Notes under the pieces: generated by a model | Told to the model about the DNA's origin: nothing | The model's input: only the letters and a program-made list of their open reading frames with translations | The model's database searches: none | Program-made: the position numbers and the translations under genes | Shown: in pieces, positions 6,335-38,727 of the stretch | Layout of the letters: each line of letters starts with the position of its first letter | Position numbering within the stretch: position 1 is the stretch's first letter | DNA from: Bernardetia sp. | Lineage (GTDB): Bacteria > Bacteroidota > Bacteroidia > Cytophagales > Bernardetiaceae | DNA: 64,000 nt | Reading direction: 5' to 3' | Assembly: GCA_020630575.1 (NCBI GenBank) | Contig: JAHDBD010000024.1 | Span: 1-64,000 of the forward strand

Positions 6335-7531
6335 ATGAAATACATCACTCGTGCCGTTTGGATTTTGTCACTTATCAGTCTTTTTACAGATATGGCAAGT
6401 GAAATGCTCTATCCAATTATGCCTATTTACCTCAAAGAAATAGGTTTTTCTATTGTTTTAATAGGTATTTTGGAAGGGTTTGCTGAAGCGATTGCAGGAC
6501 TAAGCAAAGGATATTTTGGCAAACTTTCAGACAATTCTGGCAAACGTGCGCCTTTTGTTCAGATTGGTTATGCCTTTAGTGCCATTTCAAAACCATTGAT
6601 TGCACTTTTTGTATATCCGTTGTGGGTTTTTATGTGCAGAACGATTGATAGAGTAGGAAAAGGAGTTCGAACAGGCGCAAGAGATGCCCTACTTTCCGAC
6701 GAAGCAACCCCCGAAACGAAGGCAAAAGTTTTTGGTTTTCATCGTTCTATGGACACCACAGGCGCAGTTTTAGGGCCTGCATTTGCGCTAGTTTATCTTT
6801 ATTATTACCCAAAAGACTATCAAAATTTATTTTTTATTGCTTTTATCCCTGGGGTTTTGGCTGTTTTGGCTACTTTATTTTTAAAGGATAAAAAAGCAGA
6901 AAATCAAGTCTCAAATTTAAAAGAGAAACCAAAAGAAAAAATACCTACACCCTTTTTCTCTTTTCTAAATTATTGTTCGAAGCAAAGCCCTGAAAGTTAT
7001 AGAAAATTAGTTATCGGACTTTTAGCTTTTACGCTCTTCAATAGTTCTGATGTTTTTTTATTATTGAAAGCCAAAGATGCAGGAATTGATGATACCTATA
7101 TTATCGGAATTTATATTTTTTATAACTTGATTTATGCTCTTTTTGCCTTTCCTATTGGTATTTTGGCTGATAAAGTAGGTTTCAAAAAAATGATGCTTTT
7201 AGGATTTTCTATTTTTGCAATCGTTTATTTTGGAATGTCTTTTACAAATGATATAACTGTTTTTATTGGTCTGTTTTTCTTATATGGAATTTATGCAGCA
7301 GCCACAGAAGGCATTTCGAAGGCGTGGATAAGCAATATTTCAGATAAAAAAGATGTTGCTACTGCAATTGGTTCATATTCAGGTTTTCAAAGTGTTTTTT
7401 CGATGTTAGCGAGTTCTTTAGCAGGACTTATCTGGTACAATTTCGGTGCAATGGCTACTTTTTTAGTTTCGGCGATTGCTACAGTTTGTGTCATTTTTTA
7501 TTTCGTGTTTTTCGTTAAAAAACCTTCATAA
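6335..7531 (+). CDS. Major facilitator superfamily transporter
   Basis: The 398-residue inner-membrane protein has about 12 hydrophobic segments in two halves and MFS loop motifs such as GKLSDNSGKRAPFV after TM2 and GILADKVGFKKMMLL in the second half. After TM4, the conserved stretch RVGKGVRTGARDALLSDEA is characteristic of a Bacteroidota/proteobacterial MFS group. A basic cytoplasmic loop separates the halves at about residues 185-215. The substrate cannot be told from sequence; members of this group are often annotated as putative drug or sugar efflux carriers. ATG at 6335 is the first start and begins directly with the TM1 region. The stop codon lies inside the terminator stem. Confidence 0.9.
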   Translation: MKYITRAVWILSLISLFTDMASEMLYPIMPIYLKEIGFSIVLIGILEGFAEAIAGLSKGYFGKLSDNSGKRAPFVQIGYAFSAISKPLIALFVYPLWVFMCRTIDRVGKGVRTGARDALLSDEATPETKAKVFGFHRSMDTTGAVLGPAFALVYLYYYPKDYQNLFFIAFIPGVLAVLATLFLKDKKAENQVSNLKEKPKEKIPTPFFSFLNYCSKQSPESYRKLVIGLLAFTLFNSSDVFLLLKAKDAGIDDTYIIGIYIFYNLIYALFAFPIGILADKVGFKKMMLLGFSIFAIVYFGMSFTNDITVFIGLFFLYGIYAAATEGISKAWISNISDKKDVATAIGSYSGFQSVFSMLASSLAGLIWYNFGAMATFLVSAIATVCVIFYFVFFVKKPS

Positions 7532-7552
7532 TTAATGCAATTATGAAGGTTT
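7520..7552 (+). terminator. Terminator overlapping the MFS stop codon
   Basis: AACCTTCATAATT (7521-7533) and AATTATGAAGGTT (7539-7551) form a perfect 13-bp stem with a 5-base loop. It is preceded by an A run and followed by TTATGTTTTTTT. The TAA stop of the MFS gene (7529-7531) is part of the stem. Confidence 0.85.
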
Positions 7553-7600
7553 ATGTTTTTTTGATATTCTAATTTATAGAATTAGTTTCGGCTATTTTTA

Positions 7601-9241
7601 TTAATAAAAATATTCTAATTGAGCAATTCCACCCCACTCAGTAAAATGACGTTCTCCTTCTGTAAGAATAGTTTGATACGTCGGAATTTGTCCATTAGTT
7701 ATACGAGTATTTGGAAACACTAAATAAACTACATCACCAGATTGACCTCCATTTTTAGGATTATTATTGATTCCTAATAACTCGGCTGCTTTAATAGAGG
7801 CTTCTCCCAAATGGTTTGTAGGTCCTACATCGGCATAAATAGCATAACAATATTTACCATTTCTTTGATTATAAATTACTCCAAAATCGCCTAATTTTGC
7901 TCCCATTGCCTTACTTGCAGGTAAAACTAAGAAAGGAATTGTTTCAGAATTTGCATATCTACGAGGTTCACGGTCTGTATATCTGCCATCTACCATTGCC
8001 GTTGTAGAAACATAATAACCTGGTGCAGGTTCGAAAGAACGTTGAATATAAGGAGTTCCACTTGAATTAGTAGCAATTCCCCACCAATTACCTGGATAAC
8101 CTGCATTTGCTAAATAATCTAAACCAATATTTTGAGGATGATACGCATGTGGCGCACCATCAGCATTGATTGTCATTTCATTTTCAAAGAAAAAACCATT
8201 TCTACCTGATAGTTTCCAAACAGTTGTTCCTACTGCTACATCGTATTGTTGGCGAGAAGTAATTAAAACTACATCATCTTTGATGCTAATGGTTTTGTTT
8301 TGAGTAGTAACAAGTGTACTTCCATTATATCCTTCAATTTTCAATGCTCTATTTGTACCTATTCCATAAAAAGTATAACTAAATGAATAAGAATTGTTAG
8401 AAGGAGTAGCTGTATAAAGAGGATAACCATCTACAAAAAACTTAATAGAAGTAAGATTTGCAGCTTTTCCAGAGAAAGTAATTGCTTCTCCTTTTGTAGC
8501 AGGATTTGGATACGTAGAAGTAAGTCCAAACGTAACTAAATATGAATTCTCATAAGCAGGAGCTACGTTTTTGAACATCATCGCTCTATACAAAAGTGAA
8601 GTGGCATCGGCACGAGTTGCATTTTTATTTGGTTCTAATTTACGTTTATCAGGATGATTAATTACAAACTTATTCTGAACAGCATTAGCTATGGCTGTAC
8701 TTGCCCAAGCAGCTATTTGAGAAGAATCATCAAAATAAGCAGATAAAGAATTTGTATTTCCACCACTTACATTAAGTCCATTTGCGATAGAAACAAGGGT
8801 TTGTAATTTAGTAATATTGTCTTGTGGTTTAAAAGTTCCGTCTGGATAACCTGATAAATATCCTGCTTTTGCTGCTTTGAGAATATTTTGTTCTGCCCAA
8901 TGCCCACTAATATCTGAAAAACTGAGATTTGCATTTTCAGGTTTTGGGGCTGGATTCAAACAACTTACAATCATTGTCGCAAATTCGGCTCTTGTAACAT
9001 TATTAGCTGGTCTGAATGTTCCATCTGAATAACCTGACATGTAGCCATTTGTTGTCATGTAATTAATTTCAGTTTCTGCCCAATTTCCTGCCACATCAGT
9101 GCTACTCATTTGGGTTACTTGAATAGAAGAGGCAGATTTTTTAGCATAACGATTAGGCAAAAGGTCATTTTCATCTTCTTTTAGTTCACAACTGAACACT
9201 AAAATTGAAAGAATAAACAATAGCACACTTAACTTTTTCAT
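7601..9241 (-). CDS. Lipoprotein with three SLH domains and a GH75-like (chitosanase-type) domain
   Basis: The 546-residue protein starts with a lipoprotein signal (lipobox ending at Cys18). Three S-layer-homology repeats follow at ~46-97, 107-156 and 169-222, with typical GYSDGTFRP and GYPDGTFKP cores. A short Ig-like stretch (~230-320) comes next, then a C-terminal domain (~330-546) resembling glycoside hydrolase family 75. The key match is YADVGPTNHLGEASIKAA, where Asp471 and Glu480 are nine residues apart and GEAS is conserved, as at the catalytic site of fungal chitosanases. This would place a chitosan- or glycan-cleaving enzyme on the cell surface or in the periplasm. SLH domains normally bind cell-wall polymers of Gram-positive bacteria, so the combination is unusual here. 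The GH75 assignment is by eye. Confidence 0.75.
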   Translation of the reverse strand: MKKLSVLLFILSILVFSCELKEDENDLLPNRYAKKSASSIQVTQMSSTDVAGNWAETEINYMTTNGYMSGYSDGTFRPANNVTRAEFATMIVSCLNPAPKPENANLSFSDISGHWAEQNILKAAKAGYLSGYPDGTFKPQDNITKLQTLVSIANGLNVSGGNTNSLSAYFDDSSQIAAWASTAIANAVQNKFVINHPDKRKLEPNKNATRADATSLLYRAMMFKNVAPAYENSYLVTFGLTSTYPNPATKGEAITFSGKAANLTSIKFFVDGYPLYTATPSNNSYSFSYTFYGIGTNRALKIEGYNGSTLVTTQNKTISIKDDVVLITSRQQYDVAVGTTVWKLSGRNGFFFENEMTINADGAPHAYHPQNIGLDYLANAGYPGNWWGIATNSSGTPYIQRSFEPAPGYYVSTTAMVDGRYTDREPRRYANSETIPFLVLPASKAMGAKLGDFGVIYNQRNGKYCYAIYADVGPTNHLGEASIKAAELLGINNNPKNGGQSGDVVYLVFPNTRITNGQIPTYQTILTEGERHFTEWGGIAQLEYFY

Positions 9242-9579
9242 AATAAATTTTTATAAAAATAATAAGGGAATAAAAAATAATAGGTAGTAAAATTTATTAA
9301 TCTTGAGTTTTAAAGTTAATTTAATTAACTTATAATTCCTAACTATTTATTGAAATAATGCAAAGCAAGCGCTTTCACTCAAAATGAATTGGTATTTCCC
9401 TAGCGTTTTATTACATATACTAAAATTTGTTAATTATTTGTCGTTTTTAATTCAACTATAAAAAAATATGAATAATTTTATTTGGAATTAATTCAAAAAA
9501 TAATTCTAACAACTAAAAATAAGGGGAGAGCGTAAATTTTTAATCAATAATTTTTGTTTTATTAAATCTTACAATCTCA
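9242..9579. other. Divergent intergenic region
   Basis: This 338-base AT-rich spacer must hold promoters for both flanking lipoprotein genes, but no exact TAnnTTTG box was found on either strand; TAAAATTTG (9421-9429) is one base too long. A purine run AAGGGGAGAG lies at about 9521-9530, too far from the ATG at 9580 to be a ribosome binding site. Confidence 0.5.
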
Positions 9580-10521
9580 ATGCAATTATTTCATTTTTTT
9601 AAAATTTTATTTAAGAATAAACTTCATTTTATTGCCTTTTTAGGCATTTTTTTACTTCTTTTCGTTTCCTGTAATAAAAAAACAGAAGAAGTTGCTCCAA
9701 TAGAGATTCCTGAACGTTTGGAAATCTCTCCAACTTCTCAAAGCATAGCTATTGGTGAAACAGCCAATTTTACAGCTATTTTTTTTGATAATATGGGAAA
9801 TACAATTTCTACTCCTTCTGATATTGTTTGGACAAGTAGTGATTTGTCTATTGCAAGTATGACATCGCAAGGTACTGCAACAGGACTCTCAGCAGGACAA
9901 ACGACCATAAAAGCAACCTACCAAACCATAGAAGCAACAGCACTTTTGACTGTCGTAACTGATAACAATCAAGTAGCTACCGTAACAATTACTCCATCAA
10001 ATACAGAAATTACATTGACAGAAATGGCAAGTTTAGATTTTTCTGTAAAGAATAATTTGGGACAAGAAATTACAGGAAAAACAGCTACTTGGACAAGCAG
10101 TGACATAGAACTTATAACTGTAGAAAGTGGACAAGTTACAGCAGAGAGCTATGGAACAGCAAACGTTACAGCAACAGTGGATGGAATCAAAAGTAGCCCT
10201 GCAACAATACAAGTAATACGCAAAGGAACATTTACAAATAGAGGTTCGGGAAGTGTAAAACTTCGTATTGAGAACGACGTTTTGCAAGTAGTATTGGGAG
10301 ATGATTTTTCTACCTCATCTTCTCCTCCAGATTTGAGAGTATATTTAGGAGATACTAATAATAGTGTAAATGGTGCAGTAGAATTGGCTTCTTTACGCTC
10401 TTCTAGTGGCTCTCAAACTATAAATGTTTCTTCTGAAATTTCCATTACACAATATCGTTATGTGATTATCTGGTGTAAACAGTTTGGTGGCGTTTATGGT
10501 GTGGCTGATTTGGGAGAATAA
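9580..10521 (+). CDS. Lipoprotein with two BIG2 Ig-like domains and a DM13 domain
   Basis: The 313-residue protein begins with a hydrophobic signal ending in LLFVSC, a lipobox with Cys31. Two bacterial Ig-like group 2 domains follow at about 45-128 and 133-212, each with the motif WTSSD and the ending GTATGLSAG / GTANVTATVDG. The last ~95 residues are a DM13 domain: SGSVKLRIEN, FSTSSSPPDLRVYLGDT and YRYVIIWCKQFGGVYGVADL, with the single Cys typical of that fold. DM13 has been proposed to take part in redox or hydroxylation reactions, but its role in bacteria is unknown. The protein is probably anchored at the outer membrane, facing periplasm or surface. It is transcribed alone. Confidence 0.85.
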   Translation: MQLFHFFKILFKNKLHFIAFLGIFLLLFVSCNKKTEEVAPIEIPERLEISPTSQSIAIGETANFTAIFFDNMGNTISTPSDIVWTSSDLSIASMTSQGTATGLSAGQTTIKATYQTIEATALLTVVTDNNQVATVTITPSNTEITLTEMASLDFSVKNNLGQEITGKTATWTSSDIELITVESGQVTAESYGTANVTATVDGIKSSPATIQVIRKGTFTNRGSGSVKLRIENDVLQVVLGDDFSTSSSPPDLRVYLGDTNNSVNGAVELASLRSSSGSQTINVSSEISITQYRYVIIWCKQFGGVYGVADLGE

Positions 10522-27759: not shown

Positions 27760-27967
27760 TTATAGCATAATATAAGTTTATTTGTGTTTTGCTATCATCA
27801 GTGGGTACGACACTGGCAGAATTATAAATTGAAAATGGTTTTAACCCTGCTTTTCTGAATCTAAAAATAAAAATGTTATTTTGAAATTGATACATCAAAC
27901 CTAATAAGTATGTATAAAAATCTAGAAAATAGAGTTTTAGAACAATGAAATTAGTAGTCTAGGCAGG

Positions 27968-28126
27968 AATATTCTACGCTTTACTACACACCAAATAGAA
28001 TCAGAATTGGAAAAATCCATTTCTCTAGTAAAAGATACCATCAATAAACTAGGAGGAGTTGTTTATACAGAAAATCCCCAAAGAACTAAGCGTTTTCCTA
28101 AAGATGATGGAGGGCTTTTTGGGTAG
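27968..28126 (+). pseudogene. Small gene relic, possibly of a DUF559-like protein
   Basis: A 52-codon stretch without a start codon reads NILRFTTHQIESELEKSIS and later NKLGGVVYTENPQRTKRFP before a stop. The phrase LRFT followed by an amphipathic helix resembles the end of DUF559-type very-short-patch-repair-like endonucleases, but the match is short. No intact upstream part is present; the frame is closed just before it. The rest of the 27760-28272 gap holds no other gene, only this relic and the repeat at 28148-28254. Confidence 0.35.
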
Positions 28127-28147
28127 GTAATGTGATTTTTTTACTAA

Positions 28148-28254
28148 AAAACTTTGTCAGAGTTATTTCAGATTACCAAAAAACTACTGACAATAGTTTG
28201 CATTTAGTTCGTATTTGAACTATTGACAGCCTTGTGAAAGGAGTGTCAAAGTCT
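28148..28254. repeat. Terminal-inverted-repeat element, copy 3, with inverted middle
   Basis: AAAACTTTGTCA (28148-28159) and CTGACAATAGTTT (28187-28199) match the arms of the 1117-1197 element. The 30-base segment between the arms is the reverse complement of copy 1 with only two changes. The right end is decayed (TGTCAAAGTCT, 28244-28254). Confidence 0.7.
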
Positions 28255-28272
28255 GAAAATAAAGATAGATGT

Positions 28273-30387
28273 TTACTTCTTTTGTATAATGTGTGATACA
28301 AAATTATAATTATTTCTATAACCCAAAATATCACCTAATCCAATCCATAAACTTGCTTTATGTTGTTCAAATTTTTTGTTGCAATACATTTTCAACATTT
28401 CATCTAATTCCCGTTTATTATTACAAACCATATAAGTGAATCCTATACCACTACGGGAATGAGTAAAAATAGAGGCATCATGTAACTGGTCATCAATTAA
28501 AAACATCTGCTTGCATCTGTTTATATTTTTGAGTAAATCATCAATGGAGTTCATATTAAAATCCATTAGCAAGCTCATTACAACAGTTCTAAATTTAAAA
28601 TCTCCTTTGTCTATACCTCTAAGTAATGTCAAAAAATCTTTCTGAAAGAATATTTTAGGTTTCTCAGTATAATTCTGCTTATGCTCAAACTTATACATGT
28701 AATAATCATTTATTTCATCTGTACCAGTATCTAAATATATCCAATCTAAACCTACCTCCTCATTATTAGTTAAACTGTTTATATCTAGTCTATTAGATAA
28801 ATAATATGATATCATGTCTAATTCTTCGTACGTAGATGTATTTTTTCTTTCTAAAAATTCTCGTCTTTTCTTTATATAGTCAATAAATAATACTGGAACA
28901 TCAAATAAATCCTTTATAACAACTAAATCATAAAGACTTATCAAAAAGGGGAAGTTTTCGCCTGAAAATAATTCTAAACCATTTTCTACTTTAATCATTG
29001 GAGTTAAATTTCCTACAGTTTCTAGTGATAAAGATATTATGATAACGTCGTCAAACATATCTTTGGTTATGTATTCTTTTTTATTTTTTACAGCTTTGAA
29101 TGTTGCATTATTCTTTTTGATATACTTCAAAGTTCTAATTCCTTGCTCATAGGAGTTTTTAATAATATCCTTCAGATGTTTTTCTGTCCTTATGGAGCTA
29201 CCTTCCCTTGCTTTATTCGTAATTTTATTTGCTTTTGCTTCTATAATGAATAGTGTTCTATCATATATTATTAAGCCATCAGTTTCATTTTTAATGTTAC
29301 CATCATAATAGTTAAGATTAGTACCTATTATTTTGCAACTTGGCATAATTTCTTTAAGATAAGTCATACATTTATCTAGTAAAAAATCATGTCTAATAGT
29401 AGTATATTTTCCTTGTAGTTTAGGAAGTTCTTTTATTCTATTTTCTATTTCATCTTCAACACACCAAAGTAAGAGTGGAAGTGAAGGAACTAAGTATCTG
29501 TCATTTCTCTTAATTATTGGATTGTGGGTAAGAATGGAGTTTGGAGTAAAAATATCAATATCCAATTCAACTTCTCCAAATTCAACAGAAAAAATAGTTA
29601 AAAATTTTTCTATTTTATTTAAGTCTACTTTACTAATAGTTGCTAGTTCCCTAGATGAAAAAGTATATACATCTGAAAAAGTAAGTATTGATTTAGCAAA
29701 TAGAATAATATAGATTGTTGTTGCTAAATCGACTGATTCATCAGCATAATGAGCAGTTAAATTTTTCAAGTTAATATCTTGCTCATCTAAATTATTTGCC
29801 ATATATACAGCTTTATCTTTAAGATTGTCTCTAAGTTCTTGACACTTACTGTTAATTAATTTTACAATAGACTTCCTTATTATAATTGATTCATCGATAT
29901 CAAAGCCAATAATTTTAATTACATCACTTTCAATTTTTTTAAAAATTTCTGAATAAAATATAAAATGATGGTCTGTCAATCCTCTATTTCTAATTATAGA
30001 GGATTCATTTTTTAAAGTTTGAGCTAAACTATCATAGCTAATCTCAAATGAAGTATTTTCTTTCCTATCTGTATGTGTTTTTAACAAGCAATACTTCAAA
30101 GTCATTTTTTGTATATTATCCAAAAAGGGAAGCACTGTATATTCATTAACTTCCTCATTATCTGTTAATTCTACATATCCCTTTTTTAAACAAAGAAGAG
30201 CTAAAGTTTCAGCTACAAAAAAAGCTCTATCCTCTCTATAGTCAGAGTATGTTTCAATATTATGCAAACTATTATAATATGAAACATAGGAAAGCAGGTC
30301 AAAACTATTCATTTTTGTAACATGGCTTTCTAAGGTTGAATATAAATTTTTAATATCTTCCGTAAAATTAAGGTTAAAGTCTTCCAT
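28273..30387 (-). CDS. Large protein with PD-(D/E)XK nuclease-like core, unknown function
   Basis: The 704-residue protein has no signal or membrane segment. The middle carries a nuclease-like signature: an acidic helix (FLLDKCMTYLKEIM), then NETDGLIIYDRTLFIIEAKA, where Asp370 and Glu383-Ala-Lys385 fit the D-x(n)-ExK motif of restriction-type nucleases. A helix with GIRTLKYIKKN follows. The N-terminal ~300 residues are mostly helical and the C-terminal ~250 mixed; I recognise no known domain in either. It follows, on the same strand and 113 bases apart, a small protein that also has a D-x10-ExK motif. The pair looks like a two-gene nuclease or defence module. That reading is inference; a repair or tRNA-cleaving role is equally open. 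Confidence 0.65.
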   Translation of the reverse strand: MEDFNLNFTEDIKNLYSTLESHVTKMNSFDLLSYVSYYNSLHNIETYSDYREDRAFFVAETLALLCLKKGYVELTDNEEVNEYTVLPFLDNIQKMTLKYCLLKTHTDRKENTSFEISYDSLAQTLKNESSIIRNRGLTDHHFIFYSEIFKKIESDVIKIIGFDIDESIIIRKSIVKLINSKCQELRDNLKDKAVYMANNLDEQDINLKNLTAHYADESVDLATTIYIILFAKSILTFSDVYTFSSRELATISKVDLNKIEKFLTIFSVEFGEVELDIDIFTPNSILTHNPIIKRNDRYLVPSLPLLLWCVEDEIENRIKELPKLQGKYTTIRHDFLLDKCMTYLKEIMPSCKIIGTNLNYYDGNIKNETDGLIIYDRTLFIIEAKANKITNKAREGSSIRTEKHLKDIIKNSYEQGIRTLKYIKKNNATFKAVKNKKEYITKDMFDDVIIISLSLETVGNLTPMIKVENGLELFSGENFPFLISLYDLVVIKDLFDVPVLFIDYIKKRREFLERKNTSTYEELDMISYYLSNRLDINSLTNNEEVGLDWIYLDTGTDEINDYYMYKFEHKQNYTEKPKIFFQKDFLTLLRGIDKGDFKFRTVVMSLLMDFNMNSIDDLLKNINRCKQMFLIDDQLHDASIFTHSRSGIGFTYMVCNNKRELDEMLKMYCNKKFEQHKASLWIGLGDILGYRNNYNFVSHIIQKK

Positions 30388-30500
30388 TGAATTATTTATT
30401 TAAGAATGAAACATTTTAATTTCTAAAGTCTAACATAACTAATTATGATAGTTGCTTATATTTCCAACTGCTGAGAGATAATAGATTTAGATCAATATTA

Positions 30501-31151
30501 CTATTCAAAGTTACCTTTTTCATAATATTTTAGCCAACTGTCTGCAAGTTCCATACATTTACTTTTCCTTCTTTGAGAAATAATGTTAGATTTTTCATCA
30601 GTTACAGAAATACAGACTTCATTCCTATTTCCTGTTACAGGGTTAATTGTTGAAAAATAAGGGGTGCATACAACAGCTCCATTAATAGAACTAAATTTAT
30701 GATCCATTGCATTTTTTGTCATCATAGCTATAATCATAGGATCAAGAGAACTCAATCCTGCTTGTACTACTATAACAAAGCCATCGACTTCATCATCATT
30801 TTCCCAGTAATACTGTGTTGTTTCCCTAAGTTGTCTGTTTGCATTTTTAAGAACTGCTTCAAGTGTTTCCTTATAGTCTTTGTCAGAAATTTTAAAAGTG
30901 TACTGTCCAGTTCCATCTTCATTAATATTTTCTGGCTGCAATATTACAGTATTTAAAGATGGTATAGTACCTCCTTTATCAAAAAACTCTTTATCAAGTA
31001 CCTTTAATTCAACAATGCTTTTCTCATGTTTATTAACATAATCTGCATTCTTAAAATTAGGAGATTCGCCCACATCTTCAGAAACTCTAGTGTAACCAAT
31101 ATTTTGCATAAATAAATCAAAGTCTTTTTCAATTTCTTCTGGTGTTTTCAT
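30501..31151 (-). CDS. Small PD-(D/E)XK nuclease-like protein
   Basis: ATG 31151 is chosen because the longer frame from 31205 would overlap the upstream giant gene; the product is then 216 residues. The N-terminus has NADYVNKHEKSIVELKVL with Asp37, Glu48 and Lys50 in the D-x10-ExK spacing of the PD-(D/E)XK fold, and a preceding acidic helix (EEIEKDFDLFMQNIGY). The rest shows an alternating helix/strand pattern with VDGFVIVVQAGLSS. No known family is recognised. It starts 31 bases after the stop of the 2514-residue secreted protein and is followed by the 704-residue nuclease-like gene. The two nuclease-like genes are probably one unit. Active nuclease status is not shown. Confidence 0.65.
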   Translation of the reverse strand: MKTPEEIEKDFDLFMQNIGYTRVSEDVGESPNFKNADYVNKHEKSIVELKVLDKEFFDKGGTIPSLNTVILQPENINEDGTGQYTFKISDKDYKETLEAVLKNANRQLRETTQYYWENDDEVDGFVIVVQAGLSSLDPMIIAMMTKNAMDHKFSSINGAVVCTPYFSTINPVTGNRNEVCISVTDEKSNIISQRRKSKCMELADSWLKYYEKGNFE

Positions 31152-31182: not shown

Positions 31183-34100
31183 TTAAAACCTAGCTCCCAC
31201 CACAACTCTCATCTTCAAATACTGCACATCGCCATTGAGATTATATTTTTCTACTAACAAAATATAATGTCCGATACGTACTTTTCTACCGTCGTCGGCT
31301 GTTCCGTCCCAACGAATAAAGGTGTTTTCTAAGGCTACCGACTGGTTTTGAACCAAATCACGAACTTTCCTTCCTTGTGTATCATAAATTTTGATAGTGA
31401 TAAGGTCGCCTATTTCGGCACAATCTAAATAGATTTGTGTAAAATCTTCAAAACTGTCGTTGTCTGGCGAAAAAACTTGTGGTTCTGCTCTCAAGCATTC
31501 ATCGGAACTTGGTGTAGAGTTCGATTTGCTTTGTGAGTTTTTGTAGGCAGGTGTTCCAAAACCAATAGATTCTGCTGCCGAATGCCAATTATTTCTGTCT
31601 TGCGTAGGTGCGTCTGCGCTGATTCGTTCCAAAGAAACGCCTTCATCATCTTTCAAAAGTCCTAAATGAAAATCTTCATCGTAAGCAAAACGGTCTAGTT
31701 CTGTATTCTGATTATCAAATAAAATTACTGTTCCTTCTGAATCTGCAAAAGTTGGTAATCTTGACTCAAAAAATCCTTCTTGATTTCCATTTGGATATTG
31801 AACCAAAAGCTGTTCATTTGAAGTAGAAATAGCAATATATTCGTAAGGTTTCAAAATCAAAACTTCTTCCGAAATTGCGTATTGTGTGCGTATCGTTCCG
31901 TCAGAATTTAGATTGGCTAAACTGAAATTTTGTAGGTTGATGTACTTATCCGAATTATTGAAAAGTTCGACAAAATCCGTTCCGTCAGTAGGTGGATTAA
32001 ATAAAATTTCATTCAAAATAATATCTCCAATTTCGGCAGCTTCTGGCAAAATAACCGTTGCAGTAGTGTTTTGAGCAATTAAATTTCCTGCACAATCTGT
32101 AATCGCTTCTACTTCTAAAGTATAAACCGTTTTGAACTCTAAAGGATTTGAAAGAGTAAGCGTTAAGATTTTACGAGTTGCATCTAGGTTTTTGTTTGTA
32201 ATGGTGATATTGCTATTCTGAATCAAAATTCTTGATTGAACGGCTTGTAAACTATCCAATTTTTCATCAAAAACAATGCGTACACTTGTAGGCGTTACGG
32301 CTTCTGCTCTCACTATTTTTGGCGCAATATTATCGCCACTTGTTCCATTTACAGAATTGATTTGCGCTGGTGTTCCTCCCAAATTAGAAACTGAAGAAGT
32401 CCAATTTTCACGCTCCAAACAAAAACTAGACAAGTCAATCATTTCTAAAGAATATCCTCCGTCTTTTTTGTCATTATCCGAATGCCATGCATCATCATAG
32501 GTAATTTCAAAAAGTAATTCTCCCAAATTATTTCTCAAAATAAGTCGTTCTCCACCATTATCAAGGCTTCTAAAACTACTCATTCCGATAGTTTTTCCAA
32601 ATCTTGCAAAAGAATTTACCGAACTTGTCGGACACAAAATAATTCTTTCGTTTGGCAATAATTGAAAAATTGGAAGGGCAGAAGTTCCTGTCGCATCTGT
32701 CAAAGTAACACCGTTTATACTCAAAATTTGATTCGTGTTATTGGTAAGTTCCAAAAACTCACTTTCAGGAAGTCCAACAACTGGCGCAGGGTCAGCCATA
32801 ATTTCAGTAATTAAAAGCTCTCCAAATTTTGGAACTGTTCCCTGTCCAAAAGGCAAACGCAAATTTGAAATCGTGTTATTCGAACAGTCTTTAATTCCAT
32901 TTACCAAAATTTCGTACAAAGTAGCCGTTTGAATAGCCGTTTGTAGATTGAGTTGAATGGATTTTGAAGTGATAAATTCTATACTTTCAATCGCAATAGA
33001 AGGCGAAATAGAATAATTTGAAAGCGTAACAGCCGAAAGAGAATCTACTTTTTCATCAAAAACTAAAATCAAAGTCTGATTATTTACGACCTGCAAATTC
33101 GTAACCTGTGGACTTTGCGTATCAGGATTTACTCCAAAAACTGAATTTTGTGTGCTTGGCGTCCCTCCTCGTGGGTCGTTTGAAGAAGTCCAATTGTTTT
33201 GCTCTGCACACGGATTATTTGTATCAATCATTTCTAACGAATAACCTCCATTTGCTTTTTGGCTATCTGAATGCCAACCTTTTTCATAAGAAATTTCAAA
33301 AACAAGCTGTTCGTTTGTGTTTGTCAAAATTAACGGTTCGCCTTCATTTCCCAAACTTGGAAAAGAAGTTACTCCCAAAACATTAACATTCGCATTTTGA
33401 AATTCTTGTGCTGCTGTAGTACTCGTTAAAGTCAAATATTCATTCGGTTGTAAGATTTTTGAAGGCAACGAAATTGTATTTGTGGCATCAGTCAAAGTCA
33501 GTTTTGATAAATCTAATCGCTTATCAGAATTATTGAAAATCTCAATGTATTCTCGGTTTGGAAGTCCGACGGCTGGGTCTGGGTCAGACATAATTTCAGT
33601 AATCAAAACCTCAAAACGCAAAGGCATTGCACCAATTCCTAACTCAAAAGTTTGACTTTCTGAAAGCGTATTTTGAGCGCAATCTTTTACATTACTTATC
33701 GTCAGAATTACGATTTGATTCGGTTCTAAGTTTGGCGAAAATTCAATCTCTATTTTATTATTTTCTTGCCAAATAAAACTTTGAATCGTCGTATTTTGAA
33801 GCGTATAATTTGACGGATTTATGATAGAAGAACTATCCATTTTTTCAGAAAAAGTAACGCTAATTCTATTATTTCCAATTAGCGACACTGTCGTAATTGT
33901 AGGCTGTGTATTGTCAGGATTTGAGGCACGAACTGAATTTTCTGCGCTTGGCGTTCCTCCTCTTGGGTCGTCGCTACCTTTCCAATTTTGCGCTTCTCCA
34001 CATAGATTTTCGGTATCAATCATTTCAAGCGAATAACCTCCATTTGATTTATTCGAATCTCTGTACCAAGAAGTCGAATAATTTACCTCGTGCAAAAGTT

Positions 34101-37100
34101 GTCCGTTTGTGTTTCTAAGTTGTAAAAGTTCGCCTCCATTATTCAAACTAACCATTGAAGGAACGCCCAAAACATCTATATTTCTAACCAAAAAAGAATC
34201 TACTTTTGAAGTCGTCGTAAGTGTCAAATAACTATTGGGACTAATGGCAACTTGTGGCAAAATTACACTACTTGTTGCATCAAAAAGACGAACTGTTCCC
34301 AAATTCAAAAGGTTATTTGTTGCATTATAAATTTCTAAATATTCACCTTTTGGAAGTCCTACGGTTGGGTCTTCGTCTGCCATTATTTCAGTAATTAAAA
34401 GTTCTCCATAAACAGGCATTCTTCCAATTCCGATAGTTTTTGTAGTTGAAATAATTACGTTTCCTGCACAATCTTTTACATTCTGAACGGTCAAAGTATA
34501 ACTATTTGCAGGATTCAGAGCAGCTGAAGTAATTATTTTAACCTCATTATTATTTGGTTGTGAAATGCTCGCAATTCCAATTCCTGAAATAGAATAATTT
34601 GCAGCATTAACAGCAGAAATAGAATCTAATTTTTCTGAAAAAGTCAAAAGAATTTCAGTAGTATTTATAATTCTAAATTCTACTAAAATAGGTTTTTCAG
34701 TATCAGGGTTTGATGCAAAAACAGAATTTTGCATCGCTGGCGTTCCTCCTCGTGGGTCATTTGAAGCTATCCAATTCGAAATTTCTCCACAAAAATTAGT
34801 AGGGTCAATTATTTCTAAAGAATAACCACCATTTGCTTTTGCAGCATCTTGATACCACGAAGTTTTAAAGTCTACGCTATGAATTTCTTGGTTTGTGCTA
34901 TCTCTCAAAACTAATTTCTCATCTGTGTTATTGAGTGACGGAAAAGAAGTAACTCCCAATACATTTTGGCGACCACCTGCAAAAATAGCCAAACTATCCA
35001 CTTTTGAAGTCGAAGTCAAGACTAAATATTTATTCGGTGCAAGTAAAACAGAAGGTAAATTAATGGTAGCCGTCGCATCAGATAATTTGACCGTTCCCAA
35101 ATTCAAAGGCGAATTTGTGGTGTTATAAATTTCAATATATTCAGCTTTTGGCAAACCGACTTGTGGGTCTTCATCTGCCATTATTTCGGTTATCAAAAGT
35201 TCAAAACGGTTCGGCATTCTTCCTCTTCCAAAAGTAGCAGTATTTCTAATTCCATTATTAATGCTATTTCCTGCACAATCTTCTAAGTTTTGAATGGTCA
35301 AAGTATAAATTGCCGTTGATTGAATGGCAGAAGAGAAAAATAAAATAACCTTTGTGTCATTCTTGTAAACAATTCTTGAAATAGAAAGACCATTATCAAC
35401 AGAATAAAAAGATGTATTTACTAAGTCTAAACTATCTAAAGATTCAGAAAAATTGACTTCTAAGCTGTCTGTATTTCCATTTTGTACTAAAAAAACATTT
35501 GTAATACTGGGTGGAATGGTGTCATTGACTGTTCCAAAAACAGAATTTTGAGTAGCAGGTGTTCCTCCTCGTGGGTCATTTGAAGCCTTCCAATTTGCAG
35601 GACTTTGACAATCTGAATTTATATCAATTCTTTCTAAGGTATAACCTCCGTCATCTTTTTGTGCATCTTGATACCACGCAGACGAGTAGGTAAGTTGTGT
35701 GATTTCTACATTATCAGCACCCACCAAACGCAGCGTTTCGCCTGTATTGGAAAGCGAAGGAAAAGACGTAACTGCAAGTGTATTTCCAAATTGTGAAAGA
35801 CTACTAAAAGCTGAGTTTCCACACAAAATCAAATACTCTCCTGCTGGTAAATCATAACTTCCCAAAGTAGCAAAAGAAGAAAATCCTGTTCCGTCATACA
35901 ATTTTGTTCCTTGTAATTGTTGTGTTGTATTGGAAGCATTATAAATTTCAATAAATTCATAGGTAGGAAGTCCGACTTGTGGGTCTTCATCAATCATTAA
36001 TTCTGTAATAACTAATGAATTTGGAGGAGGAGGAGTTGGAAGTGAAAAAGTAACAGTTTGAGAAGTAAGCGTATTTCCTAATAAATCTTGAATAGAGTTT
36101 ACAGTCAAAGAATAGGTTGTAGAAGGCTGAAAATCAGAATTAAATTCTAGTTCGACGGTAGTAGGAGAAGTCAAATTTGCATCAATCGGCTGTCCAAAAC
36201 CTGTTAGGTTGTAATGATTTAAGGCTTCGGCTGTTTGTTCTTCAATCGATTCTGAAAAAATCAATTCAATTTCTGTACTACTCAAAACTGTAACACTCAA
36301 GACACTCGGTGGCTGTGTATCTCTACGAAAAATATGGTCTGAAACTGGCGCAATTTCTTCATTTTGTAAATTGAAAAATCCTGCTGTGAGTGTATAATCA
36401 GTATTTGGAACGAAAACAGCACTGAAAGTCAAGCGTACTTTTGTAGGTTCTCCACTTACCAGTTGAGCCGAAACAGGATTTCCAATCGAATTATTGACAG
36501 AATATTTCGCTATATTTTGAGCATCGGCTGCCGTTGGTGGATAATCAAAACTTACTTCTAAAACAGTAGGCGAAAGAGCCAAAACAGTTGTAATTCTAGG
36601 TTGATAAACAAAATTTCTGGTTTGTGAAACAATGGCATTCGAATTTAGGTCTTGAACATTTTGTACAGAAAGTGTATAAGTTGCTGTTGCATTTAATTGA
36701 TTTGTAAAAGTCAGAGTAACTATATTTCCACCACTCAGAACGGCTGTTGTAGGATTTCCGATTCCATTATTTACGGTATAATTTATTGCCGTTTGCGCTG
36801 ATACTGTCTGTAAATCTTCTGAGAAAATGACTTGAATTTCTGTTTTTGAAAGAACATTTATTTTAGAAATACTTGGAGGAAGTGTATTAAAAACAAAGGT
36901 TTGAAGAGCTGACTGATTTCCTTGTAAATCTCTAACATTCTGAATAGTTAGTGCAAGATTTGCAAAATCATTTAAAGAACTCCCAAAAATCAATCGAACT
37001 CGTTTTGTATCAAAAGGCAATAAAATGGCACTTGTAGGGTTTCCAATGCCATTATCAAGAGAATAATTTACTGTATTTTGACTTGATGAACTCTCTACTA

Positions 37101-38727
37101 TTTCTGAAAAAGTAAGTTCGATTTGATTATTAGGCAAAAGAATAGCAGAAACAACTGAAGGAGAAAGAGGGTCATACGAAAAATCTCTTGTCCTTGTTGT
37201 CATTCCATTATTTTGTAAATCTTTTACATTTCGGATGCGAAGCTCATATATTTGTTGAGGCGTAAAAGCAACCGAAAAATTGAGTAAAACTGTACTTGAA
37301 GTTTCCAAAACGGCACTTGTAGGATTTCCAATCGTTCCCAAAACTTCGTAATTTCCTAAAATTTGTGCAGAAATTGGGTCTATATCCTCATCAAAAATCA
37401 CTCTCAATTGATTTGTAGAAATAGCCTGTACACAACCTAAAAAACATACATCTGGACGGTCTGTGTCATAATTAAAAGTAAGCGTTTGAGTAACTGGCAT
37501 TGCGTTTCCTGCTGGGTCTGCAATATTCGAAATATCTAAAGACAAAATTGTATTATCATCAAAAATATCAGAAAAGGTCAAATAAACCCGCTTAAAATCA
37601 CTATTGTCCCGAACGGCAGATAAAATGGTATTTCCTGCAAGATTGTAATTTGCTGTGTTTTGTGCTGTGGCAATTGTTACTTCTTCTATAAAATCTACTT
37701 GTAAAGTTGTCGGACTCAAAACTGTAAGAGTTTGTCCAAGTGGTGCAGCATTATCAGCAAAAATAAAAGGCGTAGAAGAAGGCACAATTATATTTCCAAA
37801 ACGGTCTTCTATTGTCTGAACATTTAATGAATAAGAAGTTCCAACTATGAAGTTGTTGGAAAAGGTAAGTCTAAAATTTTGTGCTTGATTAGGTTCGGCA
37901 GTGATTAATGTTGGATTTCCAAAACCTGCAACTGTAAAATCTGTATTTTGAAGAGAAGATAAATTTAATGCTTCATCAAAAGTAACTCGTAATTGATTTG
38001 GCGCAGCACCAAAAACCCCTATTATAATTGGAGGTGTATTATCAATGTAGGGCGCAATAGTTACATTATCAAAAATGAAATTATTACTTCTTGAATTGGC
38101 AGAGTAATTATACAAAACGCCAAAATGATTGGCTGCAAAAGTAGCTGTTTCGGTTGCTTCTCCTTGCAAAATATTGTTTACATAAACAAGCCAAGAACCT
38201 CCTGAACCCGAATCAGCAATATAAATAACACGAATATTTACACTTACAGGACTAGAAATAGGTGTAACTGTTCCGTTTGAAAGAGGCAAAATGCTTTCTG
38301 TTATTCCAACTTGTTTTTGTAGGGTTACTTGGTCAGCAATTTCTATAAAATAACCATTTAGAGAATTGGAGAGATTATTTTGGTCAGAAAAAAGATAGAT
38401 TTTGGCTTTATTTGTAGTATTTGGTGGATTTGGACTTGAAAAAGTGAGTTGTACTTCAAAATTCCATTCGTAATTTGTAGTTGCTAAATCTAATGTAATT
38501 GGAGTGGATAAATAGGCGAAACGAGTTCCACTTCCTCCACTTGGAATATCTGTTTGAAGGCGATTACTTCCATTTACGACAAAACCAGCTGTTGCATTGA
38601 CAGAATTTGCTCCTGTCCAAGTAGGATTTGCTGTAAAATCTCCATCTGAAAAATCATCGGTCAGTTGAGAAAAAGCAGGAATCAAAAAAGCAAAATAGAT
38701 AAAAAGGGAAAGTAGAAATGATTTCAT
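31183..38727 (-). CDS. Giant secreted protein: LamG-like, seven Ig-like and six lamin-tail domains
   Basis: The 2514-residue protein starts with a signal peptide (~1-20, ending IPAFSQ). A beta-sandwich domain resembling concanavalin/LamG follows (~21-225), then seven ~95-residue Ig-like (SwmB/Big_5-type) repeats to ~900. From ~906 come modules of about 265 residues, each made of a lamin-tail domain (ITEIMADEDPQVGLP and similar) plus one Ig-like domain; lamin-tail copies start near 906, 1179, 1444, 1709, 1972 and 2236. The C-terminus (~2409-2514) has FSPDNDSFEDF, IYDTQGRKVRDL and FIRWDGTADDGRKV, a FlgD-like/gliding-associated type B sorting domain for the type IX system. It is likely a surface adhesin or extracellular scaffold. 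The two nuclease-like genes follow on the same strand. Confidence 0.9.
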   Translation of the reverse strand: MKSFLLSLFIYFAFLIPAFSQLTDDFSDGDFTANPTWTGANSVNATAGFVVNGSNRLQTDIPSGGSGTRFAYLSTPITLDLATTNYEWNFEVQLTFSSPNPPNTTNKAKIYLFSDQNNLSNSLNGYFIEIADQVTLQKQVGITESILPLSNGTVTPISSPVSVNIRVIYIADSGSGGSWLVYVNNILQGEATETATFAANHFGVLYNYSANSRSNNFIFDNVTIAPYIDNTPPIIIGVFGAAPNQLRVTFDEALNLSSLQNTDFTVAGFGNPTLITAEPNQAQNFRLTFSNNFIVGTSYSLNVQTIEDRFGNIIVPSSTPFIFADNAAPLGQTLTVLSPTTLQVDFIEEVTIATAQNTANYNLAGNTILSAVRDNSDFKRVYLTFSDIFDDNTILSLDISNIADPAGNAMPVTQTLTFNYDTDRPDVCFLGCVQAISTNQLRVIFDEDIDPISAQILGNYEVLGTIGNPTSAVLETSSTVLLNFSVAFTPQQIYELRIRNVKDLQNNGMTTRTRDFSYDPLSPSVVSAILLPNNQIELTFSEIVESSSSQNTVNYSLDNGIGNPTSAILLPFDTKRVRLIFGSSLNDFANLALTIQNVRDLQGNQSALQTFVFNTLPPSISKINVLSKTEIQVIFSEDLQTVSAQTAINYTVNNGIGNPTTAVLSGGNIVTLTFTNQLNATATYTLSVQNVQDLNSNAIVSQTRNFVYQPRITTVLALSPTVLEVSFDYPPTAADAQNIAKYSVNNSIGNPVSAQLVSGEPTKVRLTFSAVFVPNTDYTLTAGFFNLQNEEIAPVSDHIFRRDTQPPSVLSVTVLSSTEIELIFSESIEEQTAEALNHYNLTGFGQPIDANLTSPTTVELEFNSDFQPSTTYSLTVNSIQDLLGNTLTSQTVTFSLPTPPPPNSLVITELMIDEDPQVGLPTYEFIEIYNASNTTQQLQGTKLYDGTGFSSFATLGSYDLPAGEYLILCGNSAFSSLSQFGNTLAVTSFPSLSNTGETLRLVGADNVEITQLTYSSAWYQDAQKDDGGYTLERIDINSDCQSPANWKASNDPRGGTPATQNSVFGTVNDTIPPSITNVFLVQNGNTDSLEVNFSESLDSLDLVNTSFYSVDNGLSISRIVYKNDTKVILFFSSAIQSTAIYTLTIQNLEDCAGNSINNGIRNTATFGRGRMPNRFELLITEIMADEDPQVGLPKAEYIEIYNTTNSPLNLGTVKLSDATATINLPSVLLAPNKYLVLTSTSKVDSLAIFAGGRQNVLGVTSFPSLNNTDEKLVLRDSTNQEIHSVDFKTSWYQDAAKANGGYSLEIIDPTNFCGEISNWIASNDPRGGTPAMQNSVFASNPDTEKPILVEFRIINTTEILLTFSEKLDSISAVNAANYSISGIGIASISQPNNNEVKIITSAALNPANSYTLTVQNVKDCAGNVIISTTKTIGIGRMPVYGELLITEIMADEDPTVGLPKGEYLEIYNATNNLLNLGTVRLFDATSSVILPQVAISPNSYLTLTTTSKVDSFLVRNIDVLGVPSMVSLNNGGELLQLRNTNGQLLHEVNYSTSWYRDSNKSNGGYSLEMIDTENLCGEAQNWKGSDDPRGGTPSAENSVRASNPDNTQPTITTVSLIGNNRISVTFSEKMDSSSIINPSNYTLQNTTIQSFIWQENNKIEIEFSPNLEPNQIVILTISNVKDCAQNTLSESQTFELGIGAMPLRFEVLITEIMSDPDPAVGLPNREYIEIFNNSDKRLDLSKLTLTDATNTISLPSKILQPNEYLTLTSTTAAQEFQNANVNVLGVTSFPSLGNEGEPLILTNTNEQLVFEISYEKGWHSDSQKANGGYSLEMIDTNNPCAEQNNWTSSNDPRGGTPSTQNSVFGVNPDTQSPQVTNLQVVNNQTLILVFDEKVDSLSAVTLSNYSISPSIAIESIEFITSKSIQLNLQTAIQTATLYEILVNGIKDCSNNTISNLRLPFGQGTVPKFGELLITEIMADPAPVVGLPESEFLELTNNTNQILSINGVTLTDATGTSALPIFQLLPNERIILCPTSSVNSFARFGKTIGMSSFRSLDNGGERLILRNNLGELLFEITYDDAWHSDNDKKDGGYSLEMIDLSSFCLERENWTSSVSNLGGTPAQINSVNGTSGDNIAPKIVRAEAVTPTSVRIVFDEKLDSLQAVQSRILIQNSNITITNKNLDATRKILTLTLSNPLEFKTVYTLEVEAITDCAGNLIAQNTTATVILPEAAEIGDIILNEILFNPPTDGTDFVELFNNSDKYINLQNFSLANLNSDGTIRTQYAISEEVLILKPYEYIAISTSNEQLLVQYPNGNQEGFFESRLPTFADSEGTVILFDNQNTELDRFAYDEDFHLGLLKDDEGVSLERISADAPTQDRNNWHSAAESIGFGTPAYKNSQSKSNSTPSSDECLRAEPQVFSPDNDSFEDFTQIYLDCAEIGDLITIKIYDTQGRKVRDLVQNQSVALENTFIRWDGTADDGRKVRIGHYILLVEKYNLNGDVQYLKMRVVVGARF

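Follow-up and report, generated by a model that had tools for sequence, protein, structure and literature searches.

Two neighbouring genes on a contig of Bernardetia sp. each encode a protein with a PD-(D/E)XK nuclease motif, raising the question of whether they form a system of their own or are separate nucleases sharing a site. The window, i.e., the whole stretch of 64,000 nucleotides analysed here, had received an initial annotation that proposed them as one undescribed module for defence or nucleic-acid processing. Each protein was followed to its relatives and their gene neighbourhoods, and the site itself was compared among sister species.

Arrangement of the two genes

The genes lie next to each other in the same orientation, as first described, separated by a gap of 113 bp.

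28273-30387, minus strand: large gene, an ORF with an ATG start encoding a predicted NERD-type PD-(D/E)XK nuclease of 704 aa (basis: PF08378, 27-member alignment and predicted model)
30501-31151, minus strand: small gene, encoding a 216-aa protein, counted from ATG, of a rare PD-(D/E)XK-type family (basis: ORF call and two relatives)

The mechanical ORF of the small protein begins further upstream, at a TTG at 31205, 18 codons before the ATG. The host genome (5.3 Mb in 94 contigs) holds no second copy of the large gene. Both motifs read from the DNA were recovered, as D370 and E383-A-K385 in the large protein and as D37 and E48-L-K50 in the small one. A PD-(D/E)XK motif by itself is cheap, while its conservation in relatives, as judged from alignments, is not; here, the catalytic residues are kept in homologues of both proteins (27-member and 3-member alignments), which answers the question raised with the motifs of whether the ExK residues persist.

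Base composition was considered as proof of transfer and set aside, as the GC content of the large gene (26.6%) is low yet not extreme and that of the small gene (31.0%) is ordinary compared with the other genes of the window (mean 32.4%, sd 3.2). Sigma-70 and Bacteroidota-type promoter patterns were sought between the genes, and none settled whether they have a shared or separate transcripts. Across the window, the Bacteroidota-type pattern TTTG-N17-23-TAnnTTTG occurs at 19 sites, compared with 7.4 expected from shuffling.

The large protein belongs to the NERD family

The initial annotation had seen no other known domain in the large protein and regarded it as undescribed, a view that gives way to a family assignment. 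Its sole Pfam match is to NERD (PF08378; residues 342-427, E 2.2e-4) with a score of 22.1 bits, exactly at the gathering cut-off of 22.1 bits, and one of its relatives (L033) matches the same model at 2.5e-7. Searches against NCBIfam, PADLOC (2.0) and PHROGs gave zero matches. The protein and its predicted active site can be outlined as follows.

N-terminal part: helical, with a possible winged helix at about 163-309, followed by the nuclease core at about 331-455
29023-29397, minus strand: nuclease core, residues 331-455 (basis: predicted secondary structure and fold matches)
29278-29280, minus strand: D370, predicted catalytic Asp, conserved in 27/27 members
29233-29241, minus strand: E383-A-K385, with K385 conserved in 27/27 members
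C-terminal domain with invariant R508 and E522 (basis: 27-member alignment)

Only six columns are invariant in all 27 aligned members (P290, D370, K385, Q415, R508 and E522), and three of them fall in the nuclease core. The column of E383 holds 20 Glu and 7 Gln, and position 337, a Glu before the core in 23 of the 27 members, carries Leu in the window's protein and in the two relatives nearest to it. The full-length structural model is poor (mean pLDDT 42) and better in the core (about 340-455, many residues 70-85), where the modelled elements (H331-347, E352-362, E365-375, E378-384, H398-425, E428-431, E447-454) follow the order alpha-beta-beta-beta-alpha-beta. Among the best fold matches of this core (VIA-align) are the C-terminal domain of Nt.BspD6I (Z about 9-10) and FokI (Z 8.6). 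Z values of 8.6-10 can reflect merely a common arrangement, and in this case the modelled fold agrees with the motif. A winged helix at residues 163-309 was also considered, and its fold matches (Z about 6) are too weak to claim it. Of the two folds proposed for confirmation by structure prediction, a restriction endonuclease (REase)-type core was modelled in the large protein, whereas the single-sequence model of the small protein (mean pLDDT 34) is too low for use. The conserved residues, together with the Pfam match, make the large protein a probable PD-(D/E)XK nuclease.

The NERD domain occurs in PglW of type 2 BREX and in some DndF proteins, and stand-alone NERD REases are known near Dnd loci (PMC12839542, PMC10853773). 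Like NERD proteins, the large protein combines a PD-(D/E)XK core, with D, (E/Q)xK and a following Gln, with defence-linked contexts. Unlike in NERD proteins of the PglW or DndF type, the core lies in the middle of the 704 residues between N- and C-terminal parts of its own, and no kinase, helicase or ATPase is recognised. Shedu (SduA, DUF4263) offers a second comparison, being likewise a single-gene PD-(D/E)XK nuclease with a variable N-terminal part. This likeness is one of working principle only: the large protein is unmatched by the PADLOC SduA models and by DUF4263 in Pfam, and the SduA fold match is weak (Z about 6) and one among many REase folds. The likeness to the type II restriction enzymes Nt.BspD6I/R.BspD6I and FokI, in turn, lies in the fold of the nuclease core, and a search for a sequence relation to them found none.

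Relatives of the large protein and their neighbourhoods

Profile searches, suggested at the outset for both proteins, placed the large one in a broad family. Scanning genome contigs yielded two relatives of full length, one in a Bacteroidetes MAG (L059, 42%) and one in Mucilaginibacter aquariorum (L060, 37%). A profile built from these and the window's protein then recovered a third in genome G753 (L081, E 1.2e-107) along with many remoter relatives, so that the family is present in 18/395 genomes of the phylum, counting that of the window. Distant homologues are encoded on 13 plasmid records, several of them annotated as SEC-C proteins, and SEC-C was confirmed by Pfam in all three plasmid homologues checked. 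Taken together, by sequence comparison the large protein is a NERD protein from a broad, mostly single-gene family, whose settings are plasmids, integrative elements and defence islands.

Such settings can be seen around individual relatives. The gene of M. aquariorum adjoins genes for a NACHT protein, an AbiJ_NTD5 protein with a TIR-effector match and PADLOC PDC-S54, as well as, by eye, a DUF262-like gene, while inspection of the G753 locus places the NERD gene amid relaxase-, RadC-, SSB- and DUF932-like genes, an apparent integrative element. An identified neighbour from the defence library occurs at 6 of the 18 NERD loci.

L041: Avs2
L043: Dam-type methylase (MTase)
L045: HsdR
L046: PDC-S20 and a DUF262-type gene
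L086: type I M
L088: HNH effector-like

Within 3.5 kb of the 18 loci, 105 neighbouring proteins match 179 PADLOC models (E<=1e-15), compared with 14 models for 103 proteins from random regions of the same relatives' genomes; as PADLOC models are redundant, these figures count models rather than loci and serve as an indication only. The family adds a widespread, mostly stand-alone group of NERD nucleases near known defence genes for which PADLOC 2.0 has no model match.

These neighbourhoods bear on two other roles for the large protein. It could be the restriction arm of an arrangement resembling restriction-modification, with its methylase missing or supplied in trans. Such an arrangement may exist at L043, where the NERD gene (7755-9662, minus strand) shares 4 bases with a Dam-type adenine methylase gene (6874-7758, minus strand) whose product matches PADLOC MTase_II at 1.5e-108, making L043:6874-9662 a candidate NERD-based restriction-modification pair. 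Yet inspection of the ORFs neighbouring the window's genes showed no cognate methyltransferase gene of the kind that accompanies type II restriction enzymes, and right beside the other relatives examined none was recognised save the type I M gene at L086, leaving this role rather unlikely in the window. Alternatively, the two genes may encode DNA repair or recombination nucleases instead of defence proteins, in keeping with the title of the paper that first proposed NERD, as a DNA-processing domain (Grynberg and Godzik 2004, cited in PMC10865869). The patchy presence of the family (7/395 genomes of the class), its mobile-element locations and its defence-gene neighbours speak against such a role, which we consider improbable.

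The small protein represents a very rare family

For the small protein, profile searches against Pfam, NCBIfam, PADLOC, PHROGs and the PDB returned nothing above noise, and searches of plasmids, genome contigs and viral contigs turned up zero relatives. Two relatives emerged by other routes, both keeping D37 and E48-L-K50. The first, found by tblastn, is XJP47001.1 of Acinetobacter phage AbIPP1 (28% over 141 aa, E 1e-7), whose gene adjoins an unrelated hypothetical gene near a tRNA. A profile of these two sequences led to the second, a 339-aa protein in genome G562 (locus L063, E 2.7e-9), which was the only find among 395 genomes of the phylum and 179 genomes of the G562 family.

31002-31043, minus strand: D37 to E48-L49-K50 motif of the small protein, invariant in 3/3 known members

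The three members share 23-24% identity and 25 invariant columns, among them D37, E48, L49 and K50. With 25 of 216 positions invariant, the chance that three given positions are all invariant is about 0.0016 by our own arithmetic, a value that depends on the alignment. The small protein is therefore a probable PD-(D/E)XK nuclease with conserved catalytic residues, as far as sequence comparison can tell, from a very rare family common to a phage and bacterial chromosomes. What is new at this locus, going by these sequence assignments, is a further member of the NERD nuclease family, itself already known, together with a member of this rare PD-(D/E)XK-type family.

In G562, the 339-aa gene comes third, after genes for an AAA/STAND-type protein (1081 aa) and a 581-aa protein, and downstream of it lie HEPN/Toprim, type IIG restriction and GajB (Gabija) genes. 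The three genes at L063:1939-7946 form an apparent operon and, beside these defence genes, a candidate undescribed defence operon.

Two independent nucleases or one system

The pairing proposed in the initial annotation can be examined from both sides. The small gene is absent beside L059, L060 and L081, which are full-length relatives of the large protein, and beside more than 20 remoter ones, and a NERD neighbour is absent at both relatives of the small protein, the phage gene and that of G562. In everything searched, the two genes never occur together elsewhere, which for the small protein rests on two known relatives, and the claim of one paired module is not borne out. The phage gene is like the window's small gene in keeping D and ELK and unlike it in lacking a NERD neighbour.

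It could still be speculated that the genes encode a two-component nuclease system peculiar to this lineage, e.g., a small sensor or nicking subunit and a large cleaving subunit. Adjacent and on the same strand with so short a gap, they could share a transcript; both motifs are intact and conserved, and nuclease subunits of unequal size are known in nature from R.BspD6I, which is among the structural matches. Against this, no relative of the one gene adjoins the other, those of the large gene stand alone or beside other defence genes, and the G562 relative of the small gene sits in a different operon. Such a system is unlikely, and its more specific form, a lineage-specific two-subunit nuclease defence in which the large NERD protein would cooperate with its rare small neighbour, is quite unlikely.

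Instead, given this mutual absence among the relatives found, the genes are best read as functionally independent nuclease genes, separately acquired into a variable chromosomal spot that is bounded by the conserved lamin-tail gene on one side and by a decayed gene of restriction-endonuclease type on the other. We give this reading, in which activity, separate acquisition, target and role are all inferred, a probability of about 0.6. The large gene would encode a self-contained NERD nuclease. Its variable N-terminal part, which is helical and may include a winged helix, would most likely serve to recognise a nucleic-acid feature associated with invaders, and its central PD-(D/E)XK core (D370, E383, K385 and Q415) would use a divalent metal to cut DNA. 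The small gene would encode a minimal PD-(D/E)XK endonuclease. Its domain may act as an effector elsewhere, since the G562 relative is last in the apparent operon with the AAA/STAND-type ATPase.

Considering the genomic context and the published NERD cases of PglW and DndF, both genes probably act against invading DNA, with an anti-phage or anti-plasmid role. Of the module first proposed, the two probable nucleases stand, with defence or processing of invader DNA as their likeliest task, while the paired system does not. Each gene is a single-gene defence candidate open to experiment.

A variable site downstream of a conserved gene

On one side of the two genes lies the gene for a secreted protein that serves as an anchor for comparison, and on the other the mobile-type repeat and gene relic that had been noted as flanking the two genes and were confirmed.

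31183-38727, minus strand: gene for a 2514-aa lamin-tail/Ig-like secreted protein (Pfam LTD, Big_5), the anchor
28140-28265 (about), no strand assigned: interspersed repeat with dozens of partial copies in its own genome and in sister species
27941-28126, plus strand: relic, the last 61 codons and stop of an endonuclease gene of REase_MTES_1575/DUF559 type

Four sister species have orthologues of the lamin-tail gene (85-92%), followed there by other genes, and their nucleotide homology to the window stops at, or within about 12 bases of, the lamin-tail stop codon. Downstream of it, one species carries a T5orf172 GIY-YIG gene (L105), another mutS, by inspection (L104), and two carry copies of the window's repeat together with a transposase-like gene and another that is PemK-like or similar (L103 and L106). 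The relic is 89% identical to L103:5539-5724, and the gene is intact at the corresponding place in that sister genome (G397), where its full product matches PF18741 (1.2e-9) and PF04480 (2.6e-9). On the side of the M28 peptidase gene, synteny was looked for in the sister species and is not kept. From the differing contents in sister species and the restriction-type relic, the two genes are read, on sequence comparison, as occupying a variable spot downstream of a conserved secreted-protein gene, one that has been home to several genes resembling those of nucleases or toxins.

A second, different interspersed repeat lies at 27765-27870, just downstream of the M28 peptidase gene, with many copies in its own genome and none among the listed sister-genome matches. 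The transposase-like gene of the sister species (L103:3668-4375 and L106:3214-3870), situated amid copies of the window's repeat, has no Pfam match at 0.01 and carries a GNHFHLLVR motif, resembling the REP-associated Y1 type by eye. It is possibly the mover of the window's repeat family.
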